Origin: a virus
Direction: 5' to 3' (one strand)
Virus record (IMG/VR): IMGVR_UViG_3300005588_000650
Location: 1 to 30,440 of that record
DNA: 30,440 nt
The position numbers and the translations under genes were made by a program. Within the stretch, counting starts at the first letter, position 1. The number at the start of each line of letters is the position of its first letter. Shown in pieces: positions 1 to 27,973 of this stretch. The notes under the pieces were generated by a model. It was not told the origin of the DNA. It worked only from the letters and a program-made list of their open reading frames with translations, and searched no databases.

Positions 1-39
1 TAGGTTGCGCCTACCCTGCAAAGGGTGATCGTGGTTCAA

Positions 40-115
40 GCCCCTATAGCTCAGTTGGTAGAGCAACTGATTTGTAATCAGTAGGTCCGCAGTTCGAGTC
101 TGTGTGGGGGCACCA
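40..115 (+). tRNA. tRNA-Thr (anticodon TGT)
   Basis: A full cloverleaf can be folded. The acceptor strand at 40-46 pairs with the seven bases before A-CCA, with one G-T pair. The anticodon stem ACTGA/TCAGT encloses the loop TTTGTAA, giving anticodon TGT. The T arm contains GTTCGAGTC, and the CCA is encoded. The 3' half (70-115) is the integration target of the adjacent island and is repeated exactly at 9917-9962. The gene stays intact because the island restores its 3' end. Confidence 0.97.
70..115 (+). repeat. attL: left 46-bp attachment repeat in the tRNA-Thr 3' half
   Basis: These 46 bases, from the anticodon loop to the CCA end, recur without mismatch at 9917-9962. Identity breaks at both edges (69 g versus t, 116 c versus t). 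A tyrosine integrase gene begins to be read 20 bp beyond it, as expected for an element inserted at a tRNA 3' end. This is the boundary of the island. Confidence 0.93.
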
Positions 116-149
116 CTTTTCCAACTTATTTAAAATCACTTTTCCAACT
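114..149 (+). repeat. Left arm-type integrase sites (two direct repeats)
   Basis: The 13-mer CACTTTTCCAACT occurs at 114-126 and again at 137-149. Its core TTTCCAAC also occurs at 9823-9830 and, inverted, at 9880-9887, next to the other attachment repeat. Tyrosine integrases of this type bind paired arm sites on both sides of the core, so these are candidate P'-arm sites. The second repeat overlaps the last codons of the integrase gene. Binding is inferred, the repeats are seen directly. Confidence 0.6.
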
Positions 150-1209
150 CCTTACTGTTTTTAGCTGCTTCAAAGCTAACTAATTTGGCTATTCCATGCT
201 CTGCCATTTGGGTATGTTTTGGCAGATAAACACTCAGTATATTTGTTGCGCTCTTTAAGGTGTGGCCTGTCACAGATACTATCTCTGCAACCGTTGCCCC
301 TGATAAAGCCAACCGCACCACCGCAGTACGTCGCAAGTCTCTATACTGATACTCTTTTCCTATTCCGGCCTGACTTCTGACCTCTGCGAACAAATGCCTG
401 AAATGATCCCCTTTGTATGGCTGCTTAGTAGCTTCTGATACAACGATATGAGTTGAAACCCTTTTAACCTTAGCAAGCACCCTTTGTAGTTCAGGCGTTG
501 CAGGAACGGTTACAAGCTCCCCTGTCTTGCTTTGCTTAAAGTGAAAGGCTTCACCATCATATTGTGTCCAGGTGAGACTTAGAATGTCCCCCTGACGCTG
601 GCCAGTATCCGCAGCTAGCCGGACTGCCAAGGCCATTGATCGGTGATTACCCTTATTTGCAATAGCCAGAAAGTTATCAATAGAATCATTGCTCCACACG
701 GCTTGTCTAGGAGGCACTGTAACCATTCTTATCTTCTTAACTGGGTTCTGACCTATTAACTCTTCCAGAACGGCATATTCCATCAGGACAGACAAAACCC
801 GCATAACAGCATTTGCCGAAGCGGGTCTAATTTCTCTAATTTTGTCATACCACCGCTCAATTAATCGGGGTTTCAATTTTCGAGGGTGCTTATCCCCGGC
901 AAATCTTTCAATCACATTGAGATTCTGAATATAATCTTTTTGAGTATTTCCGCGAAGTTTCTTAAAACGGGAACTCTTTTTATATTGTCGGATAAGCCAT
1001 GAAATAGTGCCATAATGGGGGTCTGGTTCTGATAATGAACCCCTTGTTTTATCAGCTTCCTTATTCCAATACTCTGCAACCTTGATAGATTCTGATATAT
1101 TTTTACCGAGTGAAATAGAACTGTACCCAAGATTTTTAAGTGAGGCTGAAGGCTCCCAATAAAACCTTCCCCCCTTCTCCCTTAAATGCCTTATGTTGAA
1201 CTGTCCCAT
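136..1209 (-). CDS. int: Tyrosine recombinase (island integrase)
   Basis: This 357-residue site-specific recombinase should integrate and excise the island at tRNA-Thr. An N-terminal arm-binding region and a SAM-like core-binding region (about 65-160) precede the catalytic domain. Catalytic landmarks are R205 in TGQRQGD, K229, the box YRDLRRTA (R290, R293), H316 in VTGH, and the nucleophile Y328 in SVYLPK. The usual first His of the H-x-x-R box is Arg here. The gene ends 20 bp from the tRNA CCA and converges on it. The start at 1209 follows AAGGAT with good spacing, and the start region overlaps the upstream AlpA-like gene by 19 bp, so the two are probably translationally coupled. Family assignment is firm, and the target site is shown by the 46-bp repeat. 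Confidence 0.95.
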   Translation of the reverse strand: MGQFNIRHLREKGGRFYWEPSASLKNLGYSSISLGKNISESIKVAEYWNKEADKTRGSLSEPDPHYGTISWLIRQYKKSSRFKKLRGNTQKDYIQNLNVIERFAGDKHPRKLKPRLIERWYDKIREIRPASANAVMRVLSVLMEYAVLEELIGQNPVKKIRMVTVPPRQAVWSNDSIDNFLAIANKGNHRSMALAVRLAADTGQRQGDILSLTWTQYDGEAFHFKQSKTGELVTVPATPELQRVLAKVKRVSTHIVVSEATKQPYKGDHFRHLFAEVRSQAGIGKEYQYRDLRRTAVVRLALSGATVAEIVSVTGHTLKSATNILSVYLPKHTQMAEHGIAKLVSFEAAKNSKELEK

Positions 1210-1442
1210 TGTTCTATCCTTTTTTCCAAATCTGGATCATAATCATCATCATTCATAGGGGCGATACCAGAAGCCATATCCAAATAATGTTCCATGGCCT
1301 TGAGATACCAGCGCTTTGTTCCCCGAATTGGTTTAGGAGCAATACCTTGCCTCACATATTTATCAAAGGTATTAACGCCAACATTATAAAATTCCGCTGC
1401 TTGCGACCTTGTCAGCATTCGGGGGGTTAAGGTGTCAGACAT
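1191..1442 (-). CDS. AlpA-like helix-turn-helix protein (putative excisionase/activator)
   Basis: A small (83-residue) MerR/AlpA-type DNA-binding protein. The segment LTRSQAAEFYNVGVNTFDKY is a helix-turn-helix, followed by a basic wing near KPIRGTKRWY. Proteins of this type next to an integrase act as excisionases or as activators of int, and AlpA is a hallmark of many satellites and PICIs. I prefer the ATG at 1442, which has AAGGAA about 8 bases upstream, over an in-frame TTG two codons earlier. It overlaps int by 19 bp and lies at the end of the leftward head-gene transcript. A second, truncated copy of its start region lies just upstream at 1493-1516. Whether it excises, activates or both cannot be told from sequence. 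Confidence 0.8.
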   Translation of the reverse strand: MSDTLTPRMLTRSQAAEFYNVGVNTFDKYVRQGIAPKPIRGTKRWYLKAMEHYLDMASGIAPMNDDDYDPDLEKRIEQWDSST

Positions 1443-1516
1443 TGCCAAGTTCCTTTATTTTATAACGCTCACCAAAACGGGGGAACGTCCTAGGGTTAAG
1501 GTGTCAATCATTGCCA
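1424..1516. repeat. 24-bp imperfect direct repeat around the AlpA-like start codon
   Basis: The segment 1424-1447 recurs at 1493-1516 with two mismatches, 69 bp apart. On the minus strand both copies carry an ATG followed by codons for (S/I)DTLT. This suggests a small tandem duplication that copied the AlpA-like start, or a doubled binding site for a regulator. Confidence 0.6.
1455..1511 (-). CDS. Possible 18-residue leader peptide before the AlpA-like gene
   Basis: The upstream copy of the 24-bp repeat opens an 18-codon frame, MIDTLTLGRSPVLVSVIK. It begins inside the stop region of the 65-residue gene and ends just before the AlpA-like ribosome binding site. Its first residues mimic the AlpA-like N terminus (MSDTLT). 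It could be a coupling leader or simply a duplication scar. No independent evidence of expression. Confidence 0.25.
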   Translation of the reverse strand: MIDTLTLGRSPVLVSVIK

Positions 1517-1701
1517 CGCCCTTCTTTAATTTCATCATCCTCAACTATGCCAATAACAATTTGCCTTTGGTGATTATGGGTGCTTCTTGGAAACCCATTA
1601 GCCATCTCTGAATTACTTCCCATAAATCGGTTAAACCTGATAGTTGCGGGCTGCCTAAATTTGGCAAAGGAATTTTCCTTTTCAGAAACGGACTTAGCCA
1701 T
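1504..1701 (-). CDS. Hypothetical 65-residue protein downstream of portal
   Basis: A small charged protein of unrecognised family. The start at 1701 is chosen because AAGGG sits about 8 bases upstream and the ATG overlaps the end of portal by 8 bp, typical of coupling. An earlier in-frame ATG at 1746 would overlap portal far more. Its place after portal is where siphophages put head-tail connector genes, but it is much shorter than known adaptor or closure proteins and shows no diagnostic motif. It could be a small connector, a redirecting factor or unrelated. Confidence 0.55.
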   Translation of the reverse strand: MAKSVSEKENSFAKFRQPATIRFNRFMGSNSEMANGFPRSTHNHQRQIVIGIVEDDEIKEGRGND

Positions 1702-2866
1702 TATCCACACCCTTTTTATCGGTTTGATATTCATCCCCACCTGCAATGATGCTCATATTTTCACGCTGACGAATGTCATTAACACTCAACCATCCCCCCT
1801 CTTTTCCAGTTTTATAGGCCTCATACCGATCCTTCAGATTGCCTCTGAGAAGGCCATCAAGACTATGTTCTATGAAAAAGGTCTTTCTGTCCCGTTCTGA
1901 CAGCAAAGCCCTGTTCATGGCTTGTTCAAAGCGAACCGTCCAAGGCCTAATGCAATTCTGAACCAGGATCCTGGATTGTTCTGTAATGTTTGAGTATGTT
2001 GCATCATCCAATATCCCCACCGCCGGAGGAGGCACTCGGAACAACCGGCAAATGTCCAAATTGACCAGCCTTGCCAGTGCGATAAATTCCATCTCCTGAT
2101 TATTCTGGCTTGTCGGTTGATATTTAAGGCCGCTATCAAGAAATAAAGCCCGGCGCGCGTTTGCAGTCCCAGTATGATGCTTAATAAATGCGCGCCTGAT
2201 CTTGTTCATAGAGTCATGGCTAAGTAGTTGGTCAGTTTGGAAGATCCCCCCCAGTCTGGCGCCATTGGCAAGCGACGTCCCCATGAATTCCTGAATAGCG
2301 AGAGCGAGACCGATCACCTCTTTACCATTTGAGATAAGTGACTGGCCTTGTGACTTGTATTTCACATGCAATACATCACTTTGAAGCAGAATACGGGTTT
2401 CCTCTTCAGGAGAACGATATTCATACCTTGAAATTCCACCGCCCAGTTTTTTAACCGTCACATGCTCCCATTGTAAGGGCCACAGGGCGACGATCCGACC
2501 ATTGTCGTCACTTTCTATCCACGCAAGGCCATGTCCATGTAGCATAACGCTGGTAGCAAGAAACTCTCTGAATTCATATGCATCCTGATCCGGGTTAGGA
2601 TTATTGTGCAAAATATCATAAAGAGGGTGAGAAACCGCTTTGTTCCGGCCACCATTATCAGTCCTTTCAAATACGCCCAAGGGAACACTTGCCAGTGTTT
2701 CAGAAATAAGGTGCATACAGGCCTGAACTGTTGCCACCTGAACGGCTGTCTTTGCTGTCACAGATTGTTTTGTGATCGAGTCCCGGACTCCAAAATATTC
2801 ACCCAGATATGGGTCACTGGATTTGACAGACCTTTTTTCAGATTTAAATATATCCATAATACCCAT
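1694..2866 (-). CDS. HK97-family phage portal protein
   Basis: This 390-residue protein forms the dodecameric ring at the capsid vertex through which DNA is packaged and to which tails attach. The N terminus (MGIMDIFKSEKR) leads into the conserved block around residues 40-70 (VATVQACMHLISETLASVPLGVF). Later come LWPLQWEHV, DVLHVKY, the LLSHDSMNKIRRAF helix and the RLFRVPPPAVGIL/NITEQSR segment, all typical of the family. Length is normal. The start codon overlaps the protease stop as TAATG, so translation is coupled. It is the last of the three head genes, the reverse of the usual portal-protease-capsid order. No tail genes follow. Confidence 0.95.
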   Translation of the reverse strand: MGIMDIFKSEKRSVKSSDPYLGEYFGVRDSITKQSVTAKTAVQVATVQACMHLISETLASVPLGVFERTDNGGRNKAVSHPLYDILHNNPNPDQDAYEFREFLATSVMLHGHGLAWIESDDNGRIVALWPLQWEHVTVKKLGGGISRYEYRSPEEETRILLQSDVLHVKYKSQGQSLISNGKEVIGLALAIQEFMGTSLANGARLGGIFQTDQLLSHDSMNKIRRAFIKHHTGTANARRALFLDSGLKYQPTSQNNQEMEFIALARLVNLDICRLFRVPPPAVGILDDATYSNITEQSRILVQNCIRPWTVRFEQAMNRALLSERDRKTFFIEHSLDGLLRGNLKDRYEAYKTGKEGGWLSVNDIRQRENMSIIAGGDEYQTDKKGVDNG

Positions 2867-3417
2867 TACACACCCCCCATGACACGAAGTCTAAGTTTGT
2901 AGAAATACAGTGGATCAAGGGTTTCAATACACATCATGGAGCGTTTGACAACACTGGTATCTGGATAAGCCGGCTGTGACGTAATCGTTACATCAAGCAA
3001 ATCTATCTCTGATAATATTCTAAGAGGTTTACCGTCCTGTTGTGTCCACCTATCGCCGCCCTTGGCTGTACGGAAAGCAAAGGATGCTCCGGTAACATCA
3101 CCACGAGTCACAAGTTCCAGCACATCCAGCCCAAGAGACGTATTAGGGACATCAAGGGAGAAATGAAGCCCCCTTGTATCTTCTGATAGGCGTAACGTCC
3201 CTGAAGACGTGCGTCCTAGAAGGTTGCGCGGTTCGTGGTCATACAAAGCCACAACATCTTTTTGACTGGCAAGGGATCGGGTGAAGGCTCCCCGCTCAAT
3301 CTTTTCGACAAATCCCCCTAAATCTTTAGAGAATTTATCAAAGACGGCGGCATAACCCTCTACCCTATTGCCAGAGGCCCGCAACTCAATTGCTGTTCTG
3401 CGTTCCATATCAGTCAT
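2866..3417 (-). CDS. HK97-family prohead protease
   Basis: A 183-residue serine protease of the herpes-assemblin/HK97 type that cleaves the capsid scaffold domain during head maturation. The start RRTAIELRASGNRVEGYAAV is the usual first strand. H61 in ALYDHEPRNLLGRT and S112 in DVTGASFAF are the expected catalytic His and Ser, and EIDLLDVTITSQPAYPDTSV is the conserved C-terminal strand with the acidic partner nearby. It starts three bases after the capsid stop and its stop overlaps the portal start, so the three head genes form one transcription and translation unit. There is no strong Shine-Dalgarno for either ATG (3417 or 3408), which points to coupling from capsid. Confidence 0.94.
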   Translation of the reverse strand: MTDMERRTAIELRASGNRVEGYAAVFDKFSKDLGGFVEKIERGAFTRSLASQKDVVALYDHEPRNLLGRTSSGTLRLSEDTRGLHFSLDVPNTSLGLDVLELVTRGDVTGASFAFRTAKGGDRWTQQDGKPLRILSEIDLLDVTITSQPAYPDTSVVKRSMMCIETLDPLYFYKLRLRVMGGV

Positions 3418-3420
3418 GAT

Positions 3421-4689
3421 TTAAACAGTCTTAATATCTGTGACTTTTACGAAACTTTCATCCCGGCGCAATACCGTGTCCACGTCCAGGAAGGCATTTA
3501 CCATTACCCCGCCTTTGTCATAGACAGCGCTGTGATAGGGATTAACCAGGATGTCCACCGCAGACCAGTATCCTACAATCAGATCCGACCAGTTGCCGAA
3601 AATCAGGGAACTTAGATTCGTACCTGTTCCTTTGGTGAGGTTATTAGGCATCTGCTTTGTGGATACCAAATTGAACCCTGCAAGTTGATTTATCGTTTCC
3701 ATAATCATTGTGGAATCTGTACTTGCCACTTTGACAGTGTTGCGGAGTTTCTTAACCACATCCTTTGTCGTCATAAAGCCAAGGCTTCCCTGCAGGGCGT
3801 TATCATCATCCACCGCAGCGATAATATCCAGAACCTTGGCCCAGTCGATATTGGCGCCGTTTGTCCCTAGGGAGACAGTTTCAACACTAGCGTTTTGCAA
3901 GAGTCCTGTGGGCTTTTTGATGCCATCCCCGTCAAGAATAGCGCTATCAAGACCAAGAGCCATTTGCGCGCCAATATCTCGCCGAATGATATTTTCAATC
4001 CCCGGGTTTGTTTGCAACATTGTCCGGCGGCTGAATGCAGTCATGCAGGACGCAGTATTTGGTGACATGGAAATTTTATCAAATGTCAGGTCACTTTCTG
4101 TAGTGGCTTCATCTTCATCAATCCAGTTAACGGTAACACTCCCTGTTTGCCGGGGAATGTCCACCGGACCAGTCAGGCCAGAAAGAGGGGTCACACCCAT
4201 ACTCAAAGTCAGGGCTTGGTTACGTAATGGATCAATAAACTGTTCGCCCTTGAAGTCCGTACTGACAAGATTGCCTGCTGAGGCAGAAGTCAGGGCGTCA
4301 CGCTTTTCAACATTTAGGGCTTCCAAGGGAACAAATATCCCACGGGGTTCTTTACCCATTGATCGGGTTAATTCCTGATGAACCTCTGCTTCAAGACCAT
4401 CTAGAGGCGTACCGTTGATCTGTGACTGAATAGACCGTTGAAGGTTATATCCTGCAATTTCTTTCTTAATCTCAAAATTGCCATTTGCGGCCCGTTTCTG
4501 CATATCCTGGATTTTATCAAGATTGCCTATCCGGCCATCCAACTGGGTTTTAATTTTTTCCAATTCATCAAATCGGGATTGTTCATTATCAGAGAGGGAA
4601 CGCTTTTTCTTCTCTGCAGTCTCCACCAAAGAGGTCATTTCCCGAACGTGTTTTGCACGTTCTTCTTTCAAATTGCGTAGATTTGGCAT
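3421..4689 (-). CDS. HK97-type major capsid protein with N-terminal scaffold (delta) domain
   Basis: This 422-residue protein is the shell subunit of the island's own procapsid. Residues 1 to about 75 are highly charged and heptad-like (NLKEERAKHVREMTSLVETAEKK onward), as in delta domains that serve as scaffold and are cut off by the prohead protease. The mature HK97 fold begins around 110-120 (SMGKEPRGIFVP). It continues through GGxL-like and DIPRQTGS blocks to SAVYDKGGVMVNAFLDVDTVLRRDESFVKVTDIK, a typical C-terminal strand set. AAAGGAA precedes the ATG. It is the first head gene read from the leftward transcript, after a 200-bp structured gap. Confidence 0.95.
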   Translation of the reverse strand: MPNLRNLKEERAKHVREMTSLVETAEKKKRSLSDNEQSRFDELEKIKTQLDGRIGNLDKIQDMQKRAANGNFEIKKEIAGYNLQRSIQSQINGTPLDGLEAEVHQELTRSMGKEPRGIFVPLEALNVEKRDALTSASAGNLVSTDFKGEQFIDPLRNQALTLSMGVTPLSGLTGPVDIPRQTGSVTVNWIDEDEATTESDLTFDKISMSPNTASCMTAFSRRTMLQTNPGIENIIRRDIGAQMALGLDSAILDGDGIKKPTGLLQNASVETVSLGTNGANIDWAKVLDIIAAVDDDNALQGSLGFMTTKDVVKKLRNTVKVASTDSTMIMETINQLAGFNLVSTKQMPNNLTKGTGTNLSSLIFGNWSDLIVGYWSAVDILVNPYHSAVYDKGGVMVNAFLDVDTVLRRDESFVKVTDIKTV

Positions 4690-4731
4690 ATTTTGAGATT
4701 CCTTTCTCGTTCACCATGAATGTTTAAGGGT

Positions 4732-4774
4732 GCCCTCCGGTGGTCGCGGTCGCCAAACTCAGACCACCGGGGGC
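4732..4774. other. Strong hairpin in the gap upstream of the capsid gene
   Basis: The arm at 4732-4745 (GCCCTCCGGTGGTC) pairs with 4762-4774 with a single bulge, around a 16-base loop. Downstream on the plus strand comes gttttgtag, weakly T-rich. On the minus strand, in which the capsid is read, no T-run follows. It could be a plus-strand terminator, an attenuator ahead of the head genes, or part of a packaging site. Confidence 0.6.
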
Positions 4775-4787
4775 GTTTTGTAGCTTT

Positions 4788-4837
4788 GTTTCATATGATT
4801 GAAACACCTATTTCAGGCGACCCGCATCATATGAAAC
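4788..4837. repeat. 12-bp perfect inverted repeat (candidate operator or packaging site)
   Basis: GTTTCATATGAT at 4788-4799 is the exact reverse complement of 4826-4837. A further GAAAC at 4801 partly repeats the arm. With the hairpin at 4732 it fills the largest gene-free stretch of the island (4690-4889). The stretch separates the regulator gene from the head genes, so an operator is plausible, and a cos/pac site is an alternative. Confidence 0.6.
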
Positions 4838-4889
4838 TCTTGAGGTCATAGACTTGCTACCAGCCTATGGGACGCGCGGGTAAATTGTG

Positions 4890-5546
4890 TTATTCAGAAA
4901 TCAAACTTGCGATCTCCCTTATTCGACTGATGCCTAATCTCGCAACCAGGTCGTATCGATCGTAAGAGATGTTATTATTATGATAAAAGCACTGATAATC
5001 GTCTCCGTCATCCAGACAGTGAAGTATCACGGATTTTCCAGGCCTTAATATTTCAAGATGAAGGGGCATTAGCCTTCTTCCTTCACCATTTTTAAAAAAT
5101 GGCCCGAGCCTTCCAGAACTTAATGTTTCAAAAAGCCAATCAATAAGCTCTCCAGCAGTTAATGGCTTTTTATCATTATCAAACAGAAAATCTAACGGGA
5201 TATTTAATTTACCGTCTGTCCAGAACGGAAAATTTGCGGCGCCTTCCAAGCCCTCAACAGTACCATCCTCTGTCCATGCCTTCTTGCCATCAATGACAAC
5301 CATATCTAATTGACAGTTTCTTGCTTGATCAACCACCTTTGGGGCATCAATAGCATTGTTCGCTCCGATTACCCCCAAAAGTAAATTTGTGACATCTTGG
5401 CGTGTCATATCAGCACCACCCCTTCCGCGCCCCCCTGAGGAGATTAGGCCATTTCTTCTAAGATGCATTGCAATAACCCTGATACTTTTTTCTTCAAGGC
5501 CAAGAATATTTGCCATAGATGGCATGAGTTTGCTTAATTTTGTCAT
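4890..5546 (-). CDS. Winged-helix-like protein of unknown function
   Basis: A 218-residue protein. The first about 60 residues form a helix-turn-helix-like unit, KSIRVIAMHLRRNGLISSGG, followed by a glycine/arginine patch (GGRGRGGADMTRQDVTNLLLGVIG). That pattern occurs at the N terminus of small proteins in alphaproteobacterial prophages. The rest is unrecognised. It sits between the TAT-signal gene and the head genes, so a head-gene regulator or a packaging-related DNA-binding protein would fit. It has its own good promoter whose predicted start coincides with the ATG at 5546, and no ribosome binding site precedes that ATG, so the mRNA may be leaderless. Function is inference. Confidence 0.75.
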   Translation of the reverse strand: MTKLSKLMPSMANILGLEEKSIRVIAMHLRRNGLISSGGRGRGGADMTRQDVTNLLLGVIGANNAIDAPKVVDQARNCQLDMVVIDGKKAWTEDGTVEGLEGAANFPFWTDGKLNIPLDFLFDNDKKPLTAGELIDWLFETLSSGRLGPFFKNGEGRRLMPLHLEILRPGKSVILHCLDDGDDYQCFYHNNNISYDRYDLVARLGISRIREIASLISE

Positions 5547-5552
5547 ATTGAA

Positions 5553-5581
5553 ATAATATTTTATTTCTTTATGCCCGTCAA
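5553..5581 (-). promoter_or_regulatory. Sigma70-type promoter of the winged-helix gene
   Basis: Read on the minus strand, TTGACG (5576-5581) and TATTAT (5553-5558) are separated by 17 bp. The -10 box ends six bases before the ATG at 5546, so transcription should begin at or next to the start codon. Confidence 0.6.
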
Positions 5582-5600
5582 CACAAATTAAAATAATATT

Positions 5601-6197
5601 CTAAATATATGTAACTCCCTGAAAAACTAGCCGTTTTGCAACCTTCCCAAGAAGAGCATCTGCGCTGTTCGGATCTGCCTTCAGAATAAATTCGATCTTT
5701 GCCGCCAAGCCTTTGGGGGTTCTTGCTGGATGCTGTGCAATAAGCAACATCAATTCACCCATCCGGTTTAATACATAGCTTTCACGCTCTTTAAGGCCAT
5801 AGAACCCTGATTTTCTCTTGAGGTTTTCCCTTTTTTCTTGAACTTTTCTCAAATCAGATAGCATTGCTTCTTTAATCTCGTCGGATCCTTCAACGCCATT
5901 GTCCTTCATGCCCTTGCAATACCCGTTAATCAGAGCGCTGTTGTTGTATCGAATTTCCCTTGGACCGTATACATCTCTCCGCACAACAATGCCATCAGGA
6001 CCAAGGTTGGCAATTATTTTGGTTTTTCTCTCATTCAACTCAATTGATTCTATCTCAAGATCATTATATTCCTTGATTGCAGCGAACAAAACATGATCGC
6101 CATTATGCTCAGTTGCCATTGCTGACATTCCTATTGCCGTTGCCGCCCCCACTGCAACCCCACCGCTCAACACTTTTCTTCTGGATAAAGTTTCCAT
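5601..6197 (-). CDS. TAT-signal protein of unknown function
   Basis: A 198-residue protein with a clear twin-arginine signal: LSRRKVL, then an alanine/glycine-rich hydrophobic stretch (SGGVAVGAATAIGMSAMA) to about residue 28. It should be exported folded to the periplasm or held at the membrane. The body is charged and mostly helical. The segment near LLIAQHPARTPKGLAAKIEF resembles a family I associate with alphaproteobacterial prophages and islands, but I know no function for it. AAGGAG lies 6 bases before the ATG. It is the first gene leftward from the divergent control region and so is under direct control of the XRE repressor region. A role in superinfection exclusion or envelope change would be a guess. 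Confidence 0.8.
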   Translation of the reverse strand: METLSRRKVLSGGVAVGAATAIGMSAMATEHNGDHVLFAAIKEYNDLEIESIELNERKTKIIANLGPDGIVVRRDVYGPREIRYNNSALINGYCKGMKDNGVEGSDEIKEAMLSDLRKVQEKRENLKRKSGFYGLKERESYVLNRMGELMLLIAQHPARTPKGLAAKIEFILKADPNSADALLGKVAKRLVFQGVTYI

Positions 6198-6230
6198 AGC
6201 TTGCTCCTTTAAGTAAACAATTAGCGTTGA

Positions 6231-6282
6231 ATTTTAACGATATTAGTTTATTAATGTCAACTATTTTCGTTAATTATTGACA
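6231..6282. promoter_or_regulatory. Divergent promoter pair between the XRE repressor and the leftward operon
   Basis: Leftward: TTGACA (complement of 6255-6260), 18 bp, TAAAAT (complement of 6231-6236), feeding the TAT-signal gene. Rightward: TTGACA at 6277-6282, 17 bp, then a weak CAATAT at 6300-6305. The two -35 boxes are 16 bp apart. TTAACG (6234-6239) and CGTTAA (6268-6273) are inverted and could be repressor half-sites. This is the arrangement of a lysogeny-type switch. Confidence 0.65.
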
Positions 6283-6311
6283 AAATTGCTATTCTTCCCC
6301 AATATTGCCCT

Positions 6312-6536
6312 ATGATAACACCGGAACAAAGCAGAGCTGGCCGCGCCCTAATCAATTGGTCGCAGACTCAATTAGCTGAAGCCTCCAATTTAGGCTTAAG
6401 TACAATTCGCGATTTCGAGAAAGGCCGCAGAACACCTACACCCAACAATCTCATGGCCATAAAAATGGCCCTATCCAATTTCATCGAATTCATACCTGAA
6501 AATGGTGGTGGTGCCGGGGTTAGGTTGAAGAAATAG
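6312..6536 (+). CDS. XRE-family repressor-like regulator
   Basis: A 74-residue single-domain Cro/C1-type DNA-binding protein. TPEQSRAGRALINWSQTQLAEASNLGLSTIRDFEKGRRTP is a textbook helix-turn-helix of the XRE family, and the tail FIPENGGGAGVRLKK is characteristic of a common alphaproteobacterial small regulator. It is the only island gene on the plus strand and diverges from the leftward operon, so it is the likely keeper of the quiescent state. No Shine-Dalgarno precedes the ATG, and the predicted transcription start falls on the ATG, suggesting a leaderless mRNA. It has no protease or dimerisation domain, so induction is probably not by RecA-driven self-cleavage. Relief by a helper-phage protein, as in PICIs, would fit. 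Confidence 0.88.
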   Translation: MITPEQSRAGRALINWSQTQLAEASNLGLSTIRDFEKGRRTPTPNNLMAIKMALSNFIEFIPENGGGAGVRLKK

Positions 6537-6574
6537 CACAAGATCCAAAACGCAACTAGGGACTTTGCTTCTTT

Positions 6575-8146
6575 TCACCACTCAACCACCGCCCCCTCAG
6601 TCTCCCATATGCTTCGCTCAGGCGCTGTACTGACTGTTGCCCTGCCCAGGGCCATGATCAAGGCAACAATGCCGTCTATGCGCTCTACTGACTTATTCTT
6701 GGCGGGTTTTAAATTCCCTGCCGGATCTTCCTGAACAACCACGTTATTTGCCATCCAGGTTAAAACCGGATGGGCCCCATGTCTCATTTGCCGGCCAGTA
6801 ACCAGTTTTTCAAGTTCCTTTGATGGGGCAGACATAGACGCAAAACCCTGCCCGAATTCAACCATTGGCGCATTTTCCGCCATGAGGTTATTGACCAGCT
6901 GGCTTGAATTCCATCGATCATAGGCTATTTCCCTGATATTAAATTTCTTGGAAAGCTCCCTGATCTTATGTTGAATATAGTCATAATCAACCACATTGCC
7001 CGCTGTGGCCTCAATATGCCCTTGCCGCGCCCATACATCATAGGGAACTTTATCACGCTCTGCGCGTTTGCGTATGTTATCCTCAGGCACCCAAAAATAG
7101 GGTAAGGTATCATAACCTCCCTCATCATCCGGAAATACCAGGACAAGGGCCGAAATATCCGTTGTCGTGGAAAGGTCGAGACCGGCGAAGCATTCCCGTC
7201 CTTCCAGCTTCTCCTCATCCACGGGGACGCCGCATTCTTCCCAGGCAACACTGTCAAGCCATCGACTTTCCGCTTCGGTCCATATACATAAATGAAGCCG
7301 TTTAAAGGTATTGGTGTATCCAGGAACTTCAATGGCTCTCTTGCATTCCTCCGCAAGATATTCCTCACTCACGCTGATTCCAAGGCCGGGGTTCGCCTTA
7401 TGCCAGATTTCAGGCTGCGTCCAATCGTCACTTTCCCCAGCAGCATAAATAACCGGAAGAAAATAGGGATCGTCAATGATACCATCACGCACTTTCAGGG
7501 CATAGTCATGCATTTCATAACAGATCGAGTATTTGTCCCAACCTGATGTGGTAATTGCCACGGTCAAGGGCTGTTTCCGCGCTCCGGTAGATGTTGTCAG
7601 AACGTCCCACAGTTCCCTGTTTTTTTGAGTATGTAGTTCATCAAAGATAATTCCATGCGCGTTCAAGCCGTGTTTGGTACCGGCATCTGCGCTCAGAACA
7701 CGATAGACCGCTTCAGACTTTGGAACGGCAATACTGTTTTTGAAAACCTGAGACATACCATCAAGCTTCCTATGGCCGTACACCATGGATTTCGCCACGT
7801 CAAAAACAATCCGCGCCTGGTCACGATCGGCGGCCGCTGAATAAATTTCCGCGCCGGCCTCCCGATCGCAGTACAGCATATACAAAGCAATCCCAGCGGA
7901 AAGCGTGCTTTTCCCGTTCTTGCGTGGAATCTCGATATACACCCGCCTGTATTTCCGGGTGCCGTCTTTTCTTTTCCAGCCGAACATGGGGCGAACAATG
8001 TCATCCTGCTGCCAGTCAGAAAGTTCCAGCGGTTTACCCGCCCATTGCCCTTTTGAATGACGCAAAAATCGCGCAAAAAATTCACAGGCCCTGTCTGCCT
8101 CTTCTTCATCAAACCAAAACTCAGGAGAAGAATTTTTCATCATCAT
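6575..8146 (-). CDS. terL: Terminase large subunit (HK97/P27-associated type)
   Basis: This 523-residue packaging motor has an N-terminal ATPase and a C-terminal nuclease. Walker A is PRKNGKST (74-81), and Walker B is GIIFDE with D169/E170. The nuclease contributes GLDLSTTTD near residue 322 and ERIDGIVALIMALG near 492, which carry metal-binding aspartates. It overlaps terS by 26 bp. Three consecutive ATG codons (8146, 8143, 8140) make the exact start uncertain. It is intact and full length, so the island should cut and package its own DNA. It converges on the repressor gene with a 38-bp gap. Confidence 0.95.
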   Translation of the reverse strand: MMMKNSSPEFWFDEEEADRACEFFARFLRHSKGQWAGKPLELSDWQQDDIVRPMFGWKRKDGTRKYRRVYIEIPRKNGKSTLSAGIALYMLYCDREAGAEIYSAAADRDQARIVFDVAKSMVYGHRKLDGMSQVFKNSIAVPKSEAVYRVLSADAGTKHGLNAHGIIFDELHTQKNRELWDVLTTSTGARKQPLTVAITTSGWDKYSICYEMHDYALKVRDGIIDDPYFLPVIYAAGESDDWTQPEIWHKANPGLGISVSEEYLAEECKRAIEVPGYTNTFKRLHLCIWTEAESRWLDSVAWEECGVPVDEEKLEGRECFAGLDLSTTTDISALVLVFPDDEGGYDTLPYFWVPEDNIRKRAERDKVPYDVWARQGHIEATAGNVVDYDYIQHKIRELSKKFNIREIAYDRWNSSQLVNNLMAENAPMVEFGQGFASMSAPSKELEKLVTGRQMRHGAHPVLTWMANNVVVQEDPAGNLKPAKNKSVERIDGIVALIMALGRATVSTAPERSIWETEGAVVEW

Positions 8147-8594
8147 CCATTCCCGGTAAATTTATTTGTCCTGAAGTGCCCTTCAATCGTGTTCGACTGC
8201 TTGGCGTTAACCCAAACTCACTTGCGAAAGCCCGCATCTGGCGCATGGCTTCCTCCGCAATTTTTAATTCAGGACGCACACGGATGATTGTTCCCTTGGC
8301 TGTTTTGCTTTCATAAGTGGTGCCTTTTTCAGTGAGTATTTTTTCGGCGACCACCCAGCGGCTATAATTCTTGCAGTATGCCGCCAAGGTCGCACCATCT
8401 ATCTTGGTCAAAACACCTATTTTCTCAAGCTCAGGGGCAACGCTTCTCCATTTTGCTTTTGAGATCTTGTCCAGCCATGCAGGACATGCCGGAGCACCTG
8501 ATTCCGGTTGTGGCTCTGCATCATTAAGAGGACGTTTGCCCGGGTTTCCTTGTACAAGCTTTAACTTCGTTGGTTTTGGTTTTCTGCCTGCCAT
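8121..8594 (-). CDS. terS: Terminase small subunit, P27 family
   Basis: A 157-residue DNA-recognition partner of TerL. The start MAGRKPKPTKLKLVQGNPGKRPLN is the signature of P27-family small terminases, and the APACPAWLDKISKAKWRSVAPELEKIGVLTKID block and the helical AAYCKNYSRWVVAEKIL stretch complete the family. It binds the packaging site and so decides that island rather than helper DNA fills the heads. Overlap with terL implies coupled expression. The gap to the HNH gene upstream is 67 bp. Confidence 0.94.
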   Translation of the reverse strand: MAGRKPKPTKLKLVQGNPGKRPLNDAEPQPESGAPACPAWLDKISKAKWRSVAPELEKIGVLTKIDGATLAAYCKNYSRWVVAEKILTEKGTTYESKTAKGTIIRVRPELKIAEEAMRQMRAFASEFGLTPSSRTRLKGTSGQINLPGMDDDEKFFS

Positions 8595-8661
8595 ATTTTA
8601 CTTTCTCAATTCGCGGACGTGTAAAGATGACTAACCGCCCGGTCTACAGAATGGCTTACTT

Positions 8662-8976
8662 TCATGATTTTCTTCCAAAGGATTGATCTCTTGCTGTCCG
8701 TCTCGAATGGCATGGCTTACAAAGGCTTCTAAGGTTATGTGCTGCCAACCTTAAATCTGGCCGCTCACTGACAGGTAAGATGTGATCCACCTCAGTCGCA
8801 ATTGTCAGCAACGGTTTACAGAACTCACATAAAGGATTGAGTGACAAGAACCTTCTTCTCAGCTTACGCCATGCCCTATCGTAACCCCTCTTAGATGCAC
8901 TCTGCCTTTGCTTATCATACTGCCTACCACTATCTGTATTAGGGTTCGGGTTATGCTTGGGGGGACGGCTAGGCAT
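8662..8976 (-). CDS. Phage HNH endonuclease
   Basis: A 104-residue HNH nuclease of the kind that sits beside terminase in HK97-like phages and is needed for cos cleavage there. The basic region SASKRGYDRAWRKLRRRFL precedes the zinc-bound fold CEFC...VDHILPV...NLRSLCKPCHSRRTARD, with both CxxC pairs and the catalytic His in VDH. I prefer the ATG at 8976. An in-frame GTG lies two codons earlier. It overlaps the end of the replication gene by 8 bp, so replication, HNH, TerS and TerL form one leftward unit. Confidence 0.92.
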   Translation of the reverse strand: MPSRPPKHNPNPNTDSGRQYDKQRQSASKRGYDRAWRKLRRRFLSLNPLCEFCKPLLTIATEVDHILPVSERPDLRLAAHNLRSLCKPCHSRRTARDQSFGRKS

Positions 8977-9802
8977 AGGCACCTACCCCACTCACTGCTG
9001 AATGCCTCATTGATTGCAGTATCTCAGCGTCTGTTAGCTTCCCATTCCATAACTGCTTGGCAAACATATCTGCTCTATCTTCCCCAATCTCACATAACCA
9101 ACCCCACACCATTGAAGGGTCAAAGCCCAATCCCTCACAGTGGCGTACTAACCTGCTGGTATTTTCCTGCTTATTCCTTTGATCCCATTGGTTGGCTTTC
9201 TTTCCCGGAATGACATGGAGCATTTCTATCTGCTTTTTATTTGGTCTTGAAATATCTTTGCCAATTGATTTGGATCTTTGCTTCCTCTCAGTTCCCCCTT
9301 GCCAAGCATCTGAAGAACGTCTCAACCTCTCTGGCTTATCAGATAATTTTTCTTCCCCCTCAAAGCATTTCTTAGTGGGCTGATAAGTATGTGGGCTGAT
9401 AAAGTGGGCTGTTACTGTAACCCCTGGAGTTCCCATGGAGTTGTAACCCCTAGAGGTTACATGGCCCGTGTAACCCTCAGAGGTTACACGGCTCGCGTTT
9501 CTTGCCGCTAAAATATCTTCATCTGTAAAGTTGATTTTATATTGGGAAACTTGGTAGCGTTTTGAATTCTTCTGACGCCTGAGCCTTTTCTTGATGTAGC
9601 CCCTTTCCTCTAATAATTTTATTGATTTGTTGACTGTTTTACGGGAAATCCCGACCACCTTTGAAAGAGTTTCTTGGGATGGAAAAGCTATAAAATGCTC
9701 ATCACAATACTTACAAAGAGCGATTAAAGTACGCAAAGCACCAAAAGTTAATTCTTGATCTTCCGCCGCCTGATACGGCACCCGTGAAAATTGGTCAGCC
9801 AT
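8969..9802 (-). CDS. Winged-helix replication initiator-like protein
   Basis: A 277-residue protein with an N-terminal winged helix (about 15-80) containing FPSQETLSKVVGISRKTVNKSIKLLEERGYIKK, as in phage and plasmid initiator or primosomal proteins. A low-complexity linker (about 100-200) follows, then a C-terminal helical domain (about 225-270). The linker DNA contains three long palindromic repeats and three GTGGGCTG repeats, an arrangement known from lambda O, where the origin lies inside the initiator gene. I therefore call it the island's replication initiator. It is not homologous to a recognised Rep/primase by motif: no primase or helicase motifs are visible. GGGGGTG precedes the ATG. 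A weaker reading is a transcription factor. Confidence 0.7.
   Translation of the reverse strand: MADQFSRVPYQAAEDQELTFGALRTLIALCKYCDEHFIAFPSQETLSKVVGISRKTVNKSIKLLEERGYIKKRLRRQKNSKRYQVSQYKINFTDEDILAARNASRVTSEGYTGHVTSRGYNSMGTPGVTVTAHFISPHTYQPTKKCFEGEEKLSDKPERLRRSSDAWQGGTERKQRSKSIGKDISRPNKKQIEMLHVIPGKKANQWDQRNKQENTSRLVRHCEGLGFDPSMVWGWLCEIGEDRADMFAKQLWNGKLTDAEILQSMRHSAVSGVGAYA
9375..9491. repeat. Iteron-like repeats inside the initiator gene (candidate origin)
   Basis: Two sets are visible. GTGGGCTGATAA occurs at 9375-9386 and 9391-9402, with a third GTGGGCTG at 9404-9411. Then a 24-bp unit built on TGTAACCCCTNGAGGTTAC is repeated at 9415-9438, 9441-9464 and 9468-9491. The last two units are palindromic (GTAACC...GGTTAC). 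Periods of 26-27 bp put the units on nearly the same DNA face. This is iteron architecture. Confidence 0.7.
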
Positions 9803-11540
9803 GCTTCACCCCCACAATATTCTTTCCAACAGGGGGGTATAAGTCATTGATTTTGCTACATGAGAACAAAGGGGGAATGGTTGGAAATTTCTTTATCTCC
9901 CCTATAACAACAGTATATTTGTAATCAGTAGGTCCGCAGTTCGAGTCTGTGTGGGGGCACCATTTGAGGTCAAAGGTGGGCACCAATAGTTTGGTGCTGT
10001 CAAACGCTATAGCCTGTTCGGCTAAAGCGGCCTTTGGACCACGCATTTTGATTTTACTTTTACCCACATCAACACGGGTAATCACATGCGCCAGATAGAC
10101 CCGCGTGAATTTTGGGTCTTTGTTTTCTTTCAACAGTTTCCTCACCGCCGCCGCAAATTCACGACAATCATTACGGGTAAGATTGCGCACCGGAAATGCT
10201 TGTTGTTGTTCTAATCGGCGAATGGCGCGGCTGTAATCCTCATTCTTGGATTGAAGCTCTTTGATGAATTTTTGCAGTGTTGCATCAAGAGTTATCTCGG
10301 ACACGCTAATTTGCTGCCATAGCTCTTTAAGCTGGTTTTTAACGCCACGTTGTTCGTTCTTTAATGTTTCAGCCCGCCCGTCATAGCTTTCACTGCGCCT
10401 TTGGGCGTGATCCACCAATTCAGGAACAATAACCTCTATGCGCTTCGAGGACAGAGCTGTATCGCAGAGCGTGTTGATCACAATGTCATTCAGTTTCTGC
10501 ATGGGAACCGAATTGCCTGAACAAGCTGCACGCCCGGCATCGGCCCGCAATCCGCATTTGTAATATCGATATTTACCGCCTTTTCCGGTGGCGATCCGCA
10601 TGGGTGAACCGCAGCTTTTGCAATGGGCAATACCGGTCAGCAGGGTTGGGCCATTGATAACCCGTGGCGGCGTGGAAAAGGCCGTATTGCGACGAAGCCG
10701 CTCATTAGCGGCATGAAATATCTCGTCACCAATGATTCGTGGCGTTTTCAGGAAAACCCATTCGTCTTCCGGCTTTGAAATTCCACTCTTGTCTTTTTTG
10801 TTGAAATGATACCGCCCCACATAGATTTCATTGGTCAGAAGCCGCTGAATGAATTGTTGCAGGAACTTGCCGCCATTACGGGTGGTTTCTCCCCGGTCAT
10901 TCAGATCATAGGCAATGGCCCGCAAGCCCATAGGCCCGCTTTTGCCATCTCCGGTCACATAATGCCTGAAAATCATTTTTACGATCTCAGCCTCTTGTGG
11001 CGCGATCTCCAGCTTCTTCTTGTCCTTCTTGCCGCGCCTCTCGGCAATATAGGTGCGATAGCCAAAGGGCGGGCGCGATCCGTTCCAGAAGCCTTGCCGC
11101 GTATTCTCAAGCATGGAGCGGCTTGTATGCTTGGAGGTTTCCTTGGATTGATATTCATCCATGGCCCCAAGGATGGTGCGCAGGACATCGGCTTGCTCCC
11201 CTTTTCCTATGTCCTGGGTGATGGAAACAAACTGCACCCCTGCCTTTTCAAGCTTTTTGGTGTTATTGAGCAGGTCGAATGTGTTGCGGGCAAAGCGTGA
11301 CTGTGAATGGACAATCACAACATCAAACGGATTGGCCGGAGAGCAGGCTTCGGCAATCATCGCCTGAAATTCAATACGATTATCATTGGTAGCACTGGCC
11401 CCGGCATCCACATAGCTTTTGGCCACATGCCATTCTTTTTGCGCGCAGTAGCGTTCGCATTGGTTAATCTGATCGGGAATGGAAATATCCTGGGCAGCCT
11501 GATTTCCCGTCGATACCCTTGCATAAATAACTGCACGCAT
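9795..11540 (-). CDS. Large serine recombinase with a chimeric C terminus
   Basis: This 581-residue frame encodes a serine integrase/invertase. The resolvase domain (1 to about 150) has S10 in IYARVSTGNQ and HSQSRFARNTFD. The recombinase domain (about 170-290) includes RPPFGYR. A zinc ribbon CKSCGSPM...YYKCG...ACSG lies near 305-345, then a coiled-coil segment (about 375-450). Residues 1-526 belong to this gene. Residues 527-541 are antisense tRNA (attR), and the last 40 come from island DNA, overlapping the initiator gene by 8 bp. Before the island inserted, the frame would have continued antisense through the tRNA as SVALPTEL and ended at 44-46. The catalytic part is intact, and the altered tail lies beyond known domains. 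AAAGGG precedes the start. The partner gene is 8 bp upstream. Confidence 0.92.
   Translation of the reverse strand: MRAVIYARVSTGNQAAQDISIPDQINQCERYCAQKEWHVAKSYVDAGASATNDNRIEFQAMIAEACSPANPFDVVIVHSQSRFARNTFDLLNNTKKLEKAGVQFVSITQDIGKGEQADVLRTILGAMDEYQSKETSKHTSRSMLENTRQGFWNGSRPPFGYRTYIAERRGKKDKKKLEIAPQEAEIVKMIFRHYVTGDGKSGPMGLRAIAYDLNDRGETTRNGGKFLQQFIQRLLTNEIYVGRYHFNKKDKSGISKPEDEWVFLKTPRIIGDEIFHAANERLRRNTAFSTPPRVINGPTLLTGIAHCKSCGSPMRIATGKGGKYRYYKCGLRADAGRAACSGNSVPMQKLNDIVINTLCDTALSSKRIEVIVPELVDHAQRRSESYDGRAETLKNEQRGVKNQLKELWQQISVSEITLDATLQKFIKELQSKNEDYSRAIRRLEQQQAFPVRNLTRNDCREFAAAVRKLLKENKDPKFTRVYLAHVITRVDVGKSKIKMRGPKAALAEQAIAFDSTKLLVPTFDLKWCPHTDSNCGPTDYKYTVVIGEIKKFPTIPPLFSCSKINDLYPPVGKNIVGVKHG
9823..9887. 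repeat. Right arm-type integrase sites (inverted pair)
   Basis: TTTCCAAC at 9823-9830 and its complement GTTGGAAA at 9880-9887 form an inverted pair beside the right attachment repeat. The same octamer occurs twice beside the left repeat. These are candidate P-arm sites for the island integrase. They also lie in the upstream region of the initiator gene, so integrase binding could affect its expression. Confidence 0.55.
9917..9962 (+). repeat. attR: right 46-bp attachment repeat
   Basis: An exact copy of 70-115, the tRNA-Thr 3' half including CCA, but without the 5' half, so it cannot be a tRNA. It marks the right end of the island. It lies inside the reading frame of the serine recombinase, where the antisense strand reads WCPHTDSNCGPTDYK. 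Confidence 0.93.
9980..9997. other. Perfect hairpin near the recombinase/tRNA junction
   Basis: GCACCAA (9980-9986) pairs with TTGGTGC (9991-9997) around a 4-base loop. The left arm with its flank, GTGGGCACCA, closely repeats the tRNA end GTGGGGGCACCA at 9951-9962, 25 bp away. It lies inside the recombinase gene just before its junction with the tRNA fragment, so it may be a recombination-site feature of the older element. Confidence 0.4.
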
Positions 11541-11548
11541 GTTTTGTT

Positions 11549-11758
11549 TTACCCTTTCAGTTTTTCCTTTTGTAATAACGGCTCAATCAAGGGCCCTAAA
11601 TAGGTCAAGAGTAAGTCCAGCTCCCGTTGTGTCACTGGCAAATGATCCGGGTCATGGGTCGTATGAATTGTAACCTCAAACGCGCCATCGATTTTAACGG
11701 TGTGGCTGTATTCAACGTCTTCTTCATCAGCCCCCGCTACATGTTTTTCTGTTTCCAT
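11549..11758 (-). CDS. Small hypothetical protein upstream of the serine recombinase
   Basis: A 69-residue acidic protein (METEKHVAGADEEDVEYSHT...) with a C-terminal amphipathic segment LDLLLTYLGPLIEPLLQKEK. I do not recognise the family. The ATG at 11758 follows AGGAAGG with good spacing and is preferred over an in-frame ATG at 11785. It is 8 bp upstream of the recombinase and shares its promoter, so it may be a partner or directionality factor for the recombinase. That role is inferred from position only. Confidence 0.65.
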   Translation of the reverse strand: METEKHVAGADEEDVEYSHTVKIDGAFEVTIHTTHDPDHLPVTQRELDLLLTYLGPLIEPLLQKEKLKG

Positions 11759-11791
11759 ATTCTGCCTTCCTAAGAAGGCGGGCATTGGAAA

Positions 11792-11848
11792 ATTATACCA
11801 AAAATATGACTAAAAGTCAATATTACATAACAATATCAATATGTTATG
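11792..11848 (-). promoter_or_regulatory. Strong promoter and operator-like repeats of the recombinase operon
   Basis: On the minus strand, TTGACT (11815-11820), 17 bp and TATAAT (11792-11797) make a near-consensus promoter with an extended -10 TG. The -35 box lies within the palindrome TGACTaaaAGTCA (11807-11819). A second inverted repeat, CATAACA/TGTTATG (11826-11848), sits just upstream. Both could be repressor sites. No regulator gene is adjacent. Confidence 0.65.
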
Positions 11849-11910
11849 AGAAATTTAATACTATTCGAAACAATTCAATCTCACTCACTATTTGCCTGTA
11901 CGAATCGATC

Positions 11911-12219
11911 CTATTCCTTCCATTCTAAAAGCAAAGCATCTGCTCTGCCGGATTCTTCATCCTTGGCGATTTTGCGCACTATGTGTTTGCTGCGGAAGCT
12001 GGCTTGTATAAGCTCGGCCTCGGTCATTCCCACATTTGCCATGAGATGAAGCAAGCTACGTTGCCCCTGATCTTTACAGATAGATTTTTCTGCTTTGAGG
12101 TACTTTTCTAACTTTTTACGCTTTTTGCACTGATCCCAGCGATACGCACTATATCCGAATGCAGCAATGATGGCAGTGAAGATAGCCGCGATGTTGGCCA
12201 AAATACTAAACCAGCTCAT
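11911..12219 (-). CDS. Small membrane-anchored protein, last gene of the defence operon
   Basis: A 102-residue protein with one N-terminal membrane helix (about 4-22, FSILANIAAIFTAIIAAFGY) and a basic cytoplasmic part (RWDQCKKRKKLEKYLKAEK). The body carries SLLHLMANVGMTEAELIQASFRSKHI, a pattern I have seen in small bacterial membrane proteins of unknown role. Its ATG overlaps the previous stop as ATGA. With the four-helix protein before it, it would place part of the system at the inner membrane, fitting a membrane effector or sensor. That is inference. Confidence 0.75.
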   Translation of the reverse strand: MSWFSILANIAAIFTAIIAAFGYSAYRWDQCKKRKKLEKYLKAEKSICKDQGQRSLLHLMANVGMTEAELIQASFRSKHIVRKIAKDEESGRADALLLEWKE

Positions 12220-12764
12220 TCCTTATCACTCCCAGGCTTGTTTTTCGTATCAGCAGAAGAGTTGGATTGCTTGATTTCATGACGATTCAGAATAAGCAGT
12301 TGGCTGCCAAGAATTACATGCCAGCATTCACGAAATGCAATGCTAGATATTAAGTAAAGACCCCATTCAACAGCAGGAACTATGCATGACAGGAAATTAG
12401 CATCGAAAGCCTTCAGGCCAGCCAACCCCCATCCAATCAATGAGATCAAAATAGTTAAAATAGCGGTCTGGAATGTGTAGATATAATTTTCAATACCATC
12501 TTCATGCTGTTTCGCCATTTTTTCAATTTCATCGGATTGCAACAAGGCTTGCGCATTACCCGCCCATGCAAAAGATAATCCGATAAAGATGCCAGCTAAC
12601 GGCAACATCATTGTACGAGCGACTTCAGCAAGCGGTATTGAAATCCATAAGGCCAAAGCCGTAGCTATCGTCATATGCAGTAACAGCCAGCGATTCCAGA
12701 ATTTGAAAATACCTGGCTTCCCGTTCAACCCCCTAAACAACCATTTCCAGTAACGCCATTTCAT
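12216..12764 (-). CDS. Polytopic membrane protein of unknown family
   Basis: A 182-residue protein with about four hydrophobic segments: near 26-46 (WLLLHMTIATALALWISIPLA), 51-70 (around MMLPLAGIFIGLSFAWAG), 96-116 (around AILTILISLIGWGLAGL) and 124-160. An acidic loop (SDEIEKMAKQHEDGIENY) lies between the second and third. The N terminus is rich in Trp and basic residues, and the C terminus is polar. The ATG directly follows the upstream TAA and the stop overlaps the next start as ATGA. Position at the end of an ATPase/AlbA_2 operon suggests a membrane-acting arm of a defence system. I see no enzymatic motif. Confidence 0.75.
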   Translation of the reverse strand: MKWRYWKWLFRGLNGKPGIFKFWNRWLLLHMTIATALALWISIPLAEVARTMMLPLAGIFIGLSFAWAGNAQALLQSDEIEKMAKQHEDGIENYIYTFQTAILTILISLIGWGLAGLKAFDANFLSCIVPAVEWGLYLISSIAFRECWHVILGSQLLILNRHEIKQSNSSADTKNKPGSDKE

Positions 12765-20837: not shown

Positions 20838-20849
20838 CACCAAGCCTTC

Positions 20850-22736: not shown

Positions 22737-22755
22737 GTTTTTATTCCTTGTCGCC

Positions 22756-26714: not shown

Positions 26715-26771
26715 GCTAATTCCCTATCAATATGCTGCTGATATGGAAGAAATCGGCGGATATATCTTTCT

Positions 26772-27824: not shown

Positions 27825-27851
27825 ACGGGTTCATATCCAATAATTTACCCC

Positions 27852-27880: not shown

Positions 27881-27973
27881 GAGGAAAATCCGCCTCAAAT
27901 TCCCACGTCGTTTAAATCGGCGGAGAGGTCGGTGAAAATTCACTGGAATTTGATTAAAATTTTCAGGGGCTAA

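Follow-up and report, generated by a model that had tools for sequence, protein, structure and literature searches.

The antisense RNA CopA of IncFII plasmids (RF00042) acts at the leader of the gene that it controls. In the Inc RNA/RNAI pair of IncI-complex plasmids the target loop reads 5'-rUUGGCG-3', and the UUGGCG loop motif is reportedly named in the title of a 1998 paper by Asano. Structured RNA is also known ahead of head genes, the Mu-gpT-DE RNA motif being a structured leader upstream of a phage capsid gene. PMC10724649 describes RNAI of IncK plasmids as a single stem-loop of 60–61 nt which kisses the target loop.

In the current study, we analysed the gap ahead of the major capsid protein (MCP) gene of a satellite island contained in an IMG/VR record of 30,440 bases, the whole of which is referred to as the window. 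The gap holds a hairpin, here termed type B, that shares with CopA/CopT a stem, an interior loop and an apical loop, an antisense CGCCAAA with its complementary UUUGGCG, and a position in the leader of the controlled gene. It differs from that system in that the gene is a capsid gene and not a replication gene, in that the loop flips, and in that the antisense RNA is putative, with one stem-loop seen; moreover, the Rfam CopA model matches window plus strand 4722–4781 (antisense to the MCP gene) only weakly, at 16.5 bits and an E-value of 1.4 against a gathering score of 60, although its consensus loop holds GUCGCCAAA in register. The resemblance to Inc RNA/RNAI lies in the UUGGCG loop, carried by 14 of the 17 type B members, while the gene and the host group are different and the pseudoknot and leader peptide are features of the plasmids. 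As with the Mu-gpT-DE motif, a structured RNA stands ahead of the major head gene, but at gathering score no Rfam family matches the gap or the MCP leaders of the 14 relatives searched. C4 antisense RNA of P1/P4-like elements (RF01695) likewise represents antisense control in phages and satellites and is present in two related satellites (Rfam gathering score; L191 1048–1216, with isrK also in L191, and L193 4642–4722), yet it lies elsewhere in the satellite and has another structure and target. A literature search, with incomplete coverage of the cf-PICI literature, found no work joining cf-PICI and antisense RNA; within the limits of that search the type of control is known, and what appears new is its association with a capsid gene together with the flipping of the loop.

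The satellite island and its relatives

The window carries a capsid-forming phage satellite within approximately 9.9 kb, located at a tRNA-Thr gene, the features of which are as follows.

71–115, plus strand: att repeat, left boundary, inside the 3' end of tRNA-Thr (40–115)
136–1209, minus strand: tyrosine integrase of the island (PF00589)
1694–2866, minus strand: portal protein (PF04860, 8.3e-97)
2866–3417, minus strand: prohead protease, Peptidase_S78 (PF04586, 5e-46)
3421–4689, minus strand: MCP, HK97 fold, Phage_capsid (Pfam PF05065, 9.2e-36; phrog_617, 2.6e-71)
4890–5546, minus strand: 218-aa protein with a small helical N-terminal domain
6575–8594, minus strand: terminase large (TerL, 6575–8146) and small (TerS, 8121–8594) subunits (PF20441/PF03354 and PF05119)
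8662–8982, minus strand: HNH endonuclease (PF01844)
9918–9962, plus strand: att repeat, second copy, right boundary

One copy of the direct repeat is in the tRNA-Thr 3' end and the other near 9918–9962 (98% over 50 columns, with an exact core of 38 bp). Read along the minus strand, the island comprises a rep-like HTH_36 gene, HNH, TerS, TerL, two proteins without assignment (198 aa and the 218-aa protein) and then, beyond the gap, MCP, S78 protease and portal, ahead of an AlpA-like protein and the tyrosine integrase, the sole plus-strand gene listed being HTH_3. The AlpA-like protein scored 19.8 against HTH_17, under the Pfam cut-off of 27, and matched phrog_66 at 1.3e-6; an 80-aa ORF (1504–1746) was without a PHROG match when a head-tail adaptor or head closure protein was sought. 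The AF2 model of the 218-aa protein is confident at the N-terminus (residues 1–78), and this protein had no match in Pfam, in PHROG or among 385 alphaproteobacterial genomes, nor did a fold search return anything at E ≤ 0.001. The cf-PICI traits found are island-encoded head genes (capsid, protease and portal), island-encoded HNH, TerS and TerL, and an integrase with tRNA-Thr att repeats; capsid, protease and portal are among the head genes listed for cf-PICIs (PMC13230959).

A near-identical island, with one mismatch over window positions 1–12689, is found in contig L004, which runs on into a host gene that a reading of its sequence identifies as RlmB. Since this flanking gene is 86% identical at the protein level to its counterpart in an Emcibacter MAG, an alphaproteobacterial host related to Emcibacter is probable. 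At the right boundary, the 3' end of a large serine recombinase ORF (9795–11540) crosses the att repeat, and part of its last residues is therefore read from the tRNA-derived repeat; this ORF may come from a neighbouring element using the same tRNA-Thr. Iteron-like inverted GTAACC...GGTTACA repeats, observed by eye in the rep-like gene (9430–9510), represent a candidate replication origin. To the right of the island, a second block (11549–29842) holds a Schlafen/AlbA_2 protein and an ArdC-type antirestriction protein together with restriction-modification, helicase and Fic genes as deduced by reading the ORFs.

Single-protein scans with the MCP and with the 218-aa protein returned the same island only, and MCP queries in phages and plasmids returned only relatives of less than 60% identity. 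The MCP-protease-portal order was observed in two genomes of an alphaproteobacterial sample (L186 and L187) and in an Acinetobacter plasmid (L189); an alignment of these three MCPs yielded 80 IMG/VR loci, mostly contigs of 4–15 kb, and a second scan, centred on one subfamily, a further 80 loci. In cf-PICIs the usual order is MCP-protease-portal-HNH-TerS-TerL-connectors. This L189-like order was found in approximately 10 loci (L211, L215, L253, L255, L260, L263–L265, L267 and L269) and is not that of the window, which shares with most relatives covering both modules an arrangement of HNH-TerS-TerL first, then MCP-protease-portal. L213 displays the phage order, and in phages found through TerL this gene is followed by portal-protease-MCP where these were matched.

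The gap and its 12-bp inverted repeat

The gap is bounded by the start codon of the MCP gene (4689, minus strand) on one side and by the 218-aa ORF's stop codon (4890) on the other. The ORF list confirms the original prediction that it is the largest gene-free part of the island, and both the hairpin and the perfect 12-bp inverted repeat that had been placed in it are present and exceed chance.

4690–4731, minus strand: 5' tail of the MCP gene past the hairpin, with ACCCTTAAAC (4722–4731) much like that of relatives and the Shine-Dalgarno AAGGAA (4699–4704)
4732–4774, unstranded: type B MCP-leader hairpin with a 13-bp G+C-rich stem, one bulge, a small interior loop and a flipping loop
4749–4758, plus strand: loop 10-mer GTCGCCAAAC, on the MCP-coding (minus) strand GTTTGGCGAC, i.e. 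GU-UUGGCG-AC, a U-turn type loop
4775–4791, plus strand: T-rich tail past the hairpin on the antisense strand (GTTTTGTAGCTTTGTTT), from sequence
4788–4837, unstranded: perfect 12-bp inverted repeat GTTTCATATGAT/ATCATATGAAAC with a 26-nt spacer, island-specific

The hairpin arms (4734–4745/4762–4773) are 92% paired around a 16-nt spacer, and those of the repeat (4788–4799/4826–4837) are paired at 12 of 12 positions. When the 200-nt gap was folded as RNA, z-scores of −3.2 (plus strand) and −4.4 (minus strand) were obtained, and on neither strand did any of 200 shuffles reach this stability. Of 5000 shuffles of the gap, one produced a perfect 12-bp inverted repeat whose loop did not exceed 40 nt, and when the whole island was shuffled 60 times, 58 of the products had no such repeat.

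The check for conservation of the 12-bp repeat in relatives failed, its pattern being found in IMG/VR in this island and one unrelated 146-kb contig only. Relatives lack it because there is no room: the upstream stop codon is separated from the hairpin by 3–40 nt in 15 type B loci, as compared to 115 nt in the window, where the stretch with the repeat accounts for the distance. As regards the extra GAAAC copies that had been noted, the sequence GTTTCA-N6-TGAAAC at 4788–4805 has no other exact match in the window. The repeat was rejected as a conserved operator, being absent from relatives and without a second copy in the island, and as an operator serving the HTH_3 gene itself, since the divergent region 6198–6311 ahead of that gene holds no match at up to three mismatches. 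Nor was it accepted as a diverged second copy of the type B hairpin: TTT..GGCGACC is common to the two loops, yet neither of the type B models employed below (R2 and R3) matched the repeat. The repeat is possibly an operator, added in this island specifically. The hairpin is present as a single copy in the record and was therefore dismissed as a REP-like multicopy element. The suggestion that the gap holds a control site for the head genes is retained in part, for the hairpin as a conserved MCP-leader element, and not for the 12-bp repeat, which relatives do not share.

Leader types ahead of the capsid gene

It is very probable that the hairpin at 4732–4774 belongs to the MCP leader as a conserved element, whatever reads it. 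The same hairpin is found directly ahead of the MCP gene in 16 other satellites, with an 11-bp stem and a loop corresponding to GTCGCCAAAC, a near variant or the reverse complement. Rows were accepted with at most two loop mismatches and a visible enclosing stem (L285 being added by eye); loci with one or two mismatches and no such stem were left out (L211, L306, L347/L261, L187, L191, L239/L241, L266 and L252), and the near-copies L190, L273 and L284 were kept out of the alignments. Across the 17 hairpins, including that of the window, 96.7% of cells are paired, two-sided changes are seen in 8 of 11 pairs, and covariation amounts to 0.353 as compared to 0.122 in shuffled alignments (none of 500 as high; at most 0.076 when slid), while the 16 hairpins without the window gave 97.2% paired and a covariation of 0.330. 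As pairing of the stem is kept while its sequence changes, the element would appear to act as a folded single strand.

Model R3, which was trained without the window, located 4732–4774 at an E-value of 5.2e-4, the next best match being at 0.84. In 87 satellite loci (753 kb), every R2 match at E < 0.01 was an MCP-leader copy, the matched loci being training members. R3 returned nothing at E ≤ 0.1 in 84 other phage loci and matched three of 385 alphaproteobacterial genomes, all without the loop; the other-phage controls were 84 of 88 TerL-found loci (L096–L185, without L101, L102, L106 and L146 among others). Each satellite has one type B copy, placed after the stop codon of the upstream gene and before the Shine-Dalgarno of the MCP gene, and in six type B satellites the gene upstream of the hairpin is a relative of the 218-aa protein (tblastn). 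At gathering score no Rfam family was found in the gap or in the MCP leaders of 14 relatives, the matches to tRNA, C4, isrK and sRNA-Xcc1 lying outside the leader, and tRNA was the only family at that score in the window.

As a group, the MCP leaders are more structured than the controls. The mean z-score of non-redundant 90-nt leaders was −1.31 for MCP (n = 113), as compared to +0.23 for portal (n = 100), −0.43 for protease (n = 115) and −0.08 for TerL (n = 50), and the window's own 90-nt MCP leader had a z-score of −2.9, a stability reached by 3 of 300 shuffles. Comparison of the last 90 nt left 119 distinct leaders out of 152.

Many sister satellites are without the type B hairpin and have a type A leader instead, which consists of a short hairpin with a GNRA-like loop (GNCGNGAGNC), which is no kissing loop, and of NAGATGGAG after it, at the Shine-Dalgarno; the hairpin is often duplicated in tandem. 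Type A lies mostly 36–111 nt before the MCP gene (L186–L349), and one of its base pairs covaries (UA 14, CG 4); at gathering score Rfam had no match there in 14 loci. Model R1 was trained on 18 type A rows chosen by eye (left out: L196, L201, L204, L209, L219, L221, L223, L230 and L243) and gave 27 matches at E < 0.01 in 84 sources (805 kb), 26 of them within 120 nt before an MCP gene and the 27th in L186 (10667–10706), before a small ORF upstream. In a second set of 77 loci there were 45 matches at E ≤ 0.05, of which six lie approximately 450–600 nt upstream of the MCP gene and the rest near it. Because type A also occurs farther upstream (L302 2448–2546, L303 1411–1506, L312 2405–2501, and L186), it may mark more than one structural gene. 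R1 found nothing at E ≤ 0.1 in the 84 other phage loci, and among the 385 alphaproteobacterial genomes it produced two matches at E ≤ 0.001, one being a known satellite in G344 and the other (L272) lying where no phage gene was recognised in the ORF list.

In the loci tested, types A and B are mutually exclusive: 16 type B loci were without type A at E ≤ 0.05, and type A loci given to R2 had no type B match at E < 0.01. The window itself was rejected as a type A leader, since R1 had no match in the gap and its best match in the island, at E 0.25, lies elsewhere. A third leader type was noted in the last 25 nt before the MCP gene of L242, L254, L335 and L340 (TGTCTTTCGAAAGGACA), which would form a hairpin covering the Shine-Dalgarno directly; the MCPs of these four loci apparently start with TTG.

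These comparisons also bear on the proposal that the gap is the packaging site recognised by TerS. The island does have its own HNH, TerS and TerL, and there is one hairpin per satellite. Nonetheless, we consider it highly improbable that the hairpin is a cos or pac site read by TerS, given that it adjoins the MCP gene and not HNH/TerS, that it is missing from the type A sisters, and that its arms vary in sequence yet still pair, which is unlike a sequence-specific duplex site. The HNH-TerS gap (8595–8661, 67 nt) holds GACCGGGCGGTTAGTC on the minus strand, and we infer that it is the likelier candidate for a packaging or cos site.

The flipping loop and its possible reader

Twelve distinct leaders carry the loop 10-mer without any change, and its CAAAC is invariant in 17 of 17, in satellites whose MCPs are only about one third identical to that of the window and whose stem sequences vary. 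GUUUG is found on one strand of every member, with the U-turn YUNR motif present; besides the 14 members with UUGGCG, other hexaloops are seen in three (UUGCAG twice, UUGGAC once). Of 105 other leaders, 16 contain TTGGCG/CGCCAA at some position, and the hexamer alone is therefore not specific.

The GTCGCCAAAC-type loop is on the MCP-coding strand in eight loci; in another eight, and in the window, it is on the opposite strand, with the flanks unchanged in orientation. On an MCP DNA tree (16 type B and three type A rows) six orientation changes are required, compared to a mean of 6.4 with shuffled labels, and well-supported branches force four to five, a count to which leader exchange between satellites, inseparable here from in-place flips, could add. 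Either orientation as a single clade was rejected (AU p 5e-9 and 2e-75), and an MCP protein tree of 38 chosen rows, including the window, also gave six changes. The inversion event is not strange in itself, since hairpin loops invert often in chloroplast non-coding DNA, as described in PMC6005162; the strange part is that the loop sequence survives the flips. A loop that is kept in either orientation must have a reader that is indifferent to strand.

Such frequent and spontaneous inversion would also be expected if the loop were merely inherited and flipped neutrally, the stem alone being of importance, for example by separating the upstream gene from MCP translation. This is improbable in view of a 10-mer that is exact in 12 leaders, and a CAAAC in all 17, across divergent MCPs while the stem sequence changes. 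We regard it as unlikely, if a little less so, that the hairpin acts as DNA, with the loop as a binding or nicking site (for a replication start or a regulator) presented by a hairpin or cruciform on either strand. Independence of orientation would then be natural, and a kept loop on a paired stem of variable sequence suits a cruciform or single-stranded hairpin; however, the constant place past the upstream stop codon and ahead of the MCP Shine-Dalgarno is odd for a replication or recombination site, an RNA-like leader element substitutes for it in the sisters, and the U-turn loop would be a coincidence.

The presence of an alternative type A element at the same spot argues for a shared leader function, and this could be exerted by RNA without an antisense partner: the hairpin may be a translational operator bound by the capsid protein or by a satellite or host RNA-binding protein, a 5' hairpin with a stabilising role, or a site of processing. 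This explanation, which we judge to be rather unlikely though by no means negligible, accords with the greater structure of MCP leaders relative to those of neighbouring genes, with the finding that types A and B were never seen together, and with folding of the tail with the Shine-Dalgarno in the type B leaders L278, L281, L292 and L296. It does not readily explain the loop, as a protein that reads the loop needs one orientation and both are kept, while a free loop would not be expected to keep 10 nt.

Our tentative preference, which we hold with less than even confidence, is that the gap is the 5' leader of the satellite capsid operon and that the hairpin is the point at which the MCP mRNA leader and an antisense RNA meet. 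We infer the antisense RNA itself; the stem, the loop and its two orientations are observed. An antisense RNA transcribed from the opposite strand of the same DNA would meet the MCP leader at the hairpin, as in plasmid CopA/CopT or Inc RNA, both RNAs folding the same stem and exposing complementary loops. One of these two loops would always be of the U-turn type, which would speed kissing between the loops. As one stretch of DNA encodes both loops, a flip would merely swap the partner that bears the U-turn, and inversion would be tolerated with the loop and stem still under selection; a cis-encoded antisense RNA would therefore keep stem and loop and leave orientation free. From there, pairing would extend to the Shine-Dalgarno close by, and capsid translation would be blocked or destabilised until satellite induction allows the MCP mRNA to outrun the antisense RNA.

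PtaRNA1, an antisense RNA, gave a weak match on the antisense strand of L296 (E 0.03, 20.5 bits as compared to a gathering score of 47). An interior loop below the apical loop is visible in the folds, and rapid binding of CopA to CopT needs such a loop, as stated in PMC3753616. From its sequence, the T-rich tail at 4775–4791 is a possible end of the putative antisense RNA, and the antisense strand past the hairpin is also T-rich in several relatives (GGTTTTAT); it counts against this that part of the T-run is supplied by the stop codon of the upstream gene. A search for antisense sigma-70-like promoters found none above shuffles in any of the 17 loci, and none was listed on the plus strand at 4600–4740.

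A broader claim, in which capsid production is held down in a large cf-satellite family by a cis-encoded kissing antisense RNA, loop inversions swap the partner with the U-turn, and type A performs the same task in the sisters, is somewhat more doubtful again, though it deserves consideration. As far as the literature was searched, the timing of capsid synthesis in satellites with their own capsid is without an RNA-level explanation, and a compact leader element, which sister satellites have swapped for an unrelated type, offers a handle that can be tested with reporters. The flipping loop represents a natural test of what is selected in kissing loops, namely complementarity and a U-turn on either partner, and not the message strand. 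If the antisense model is wrong, the data still require a reader that is blind to loop orientation; if it is true, this would be a case of evolutionary switching of partner roles at one locus.
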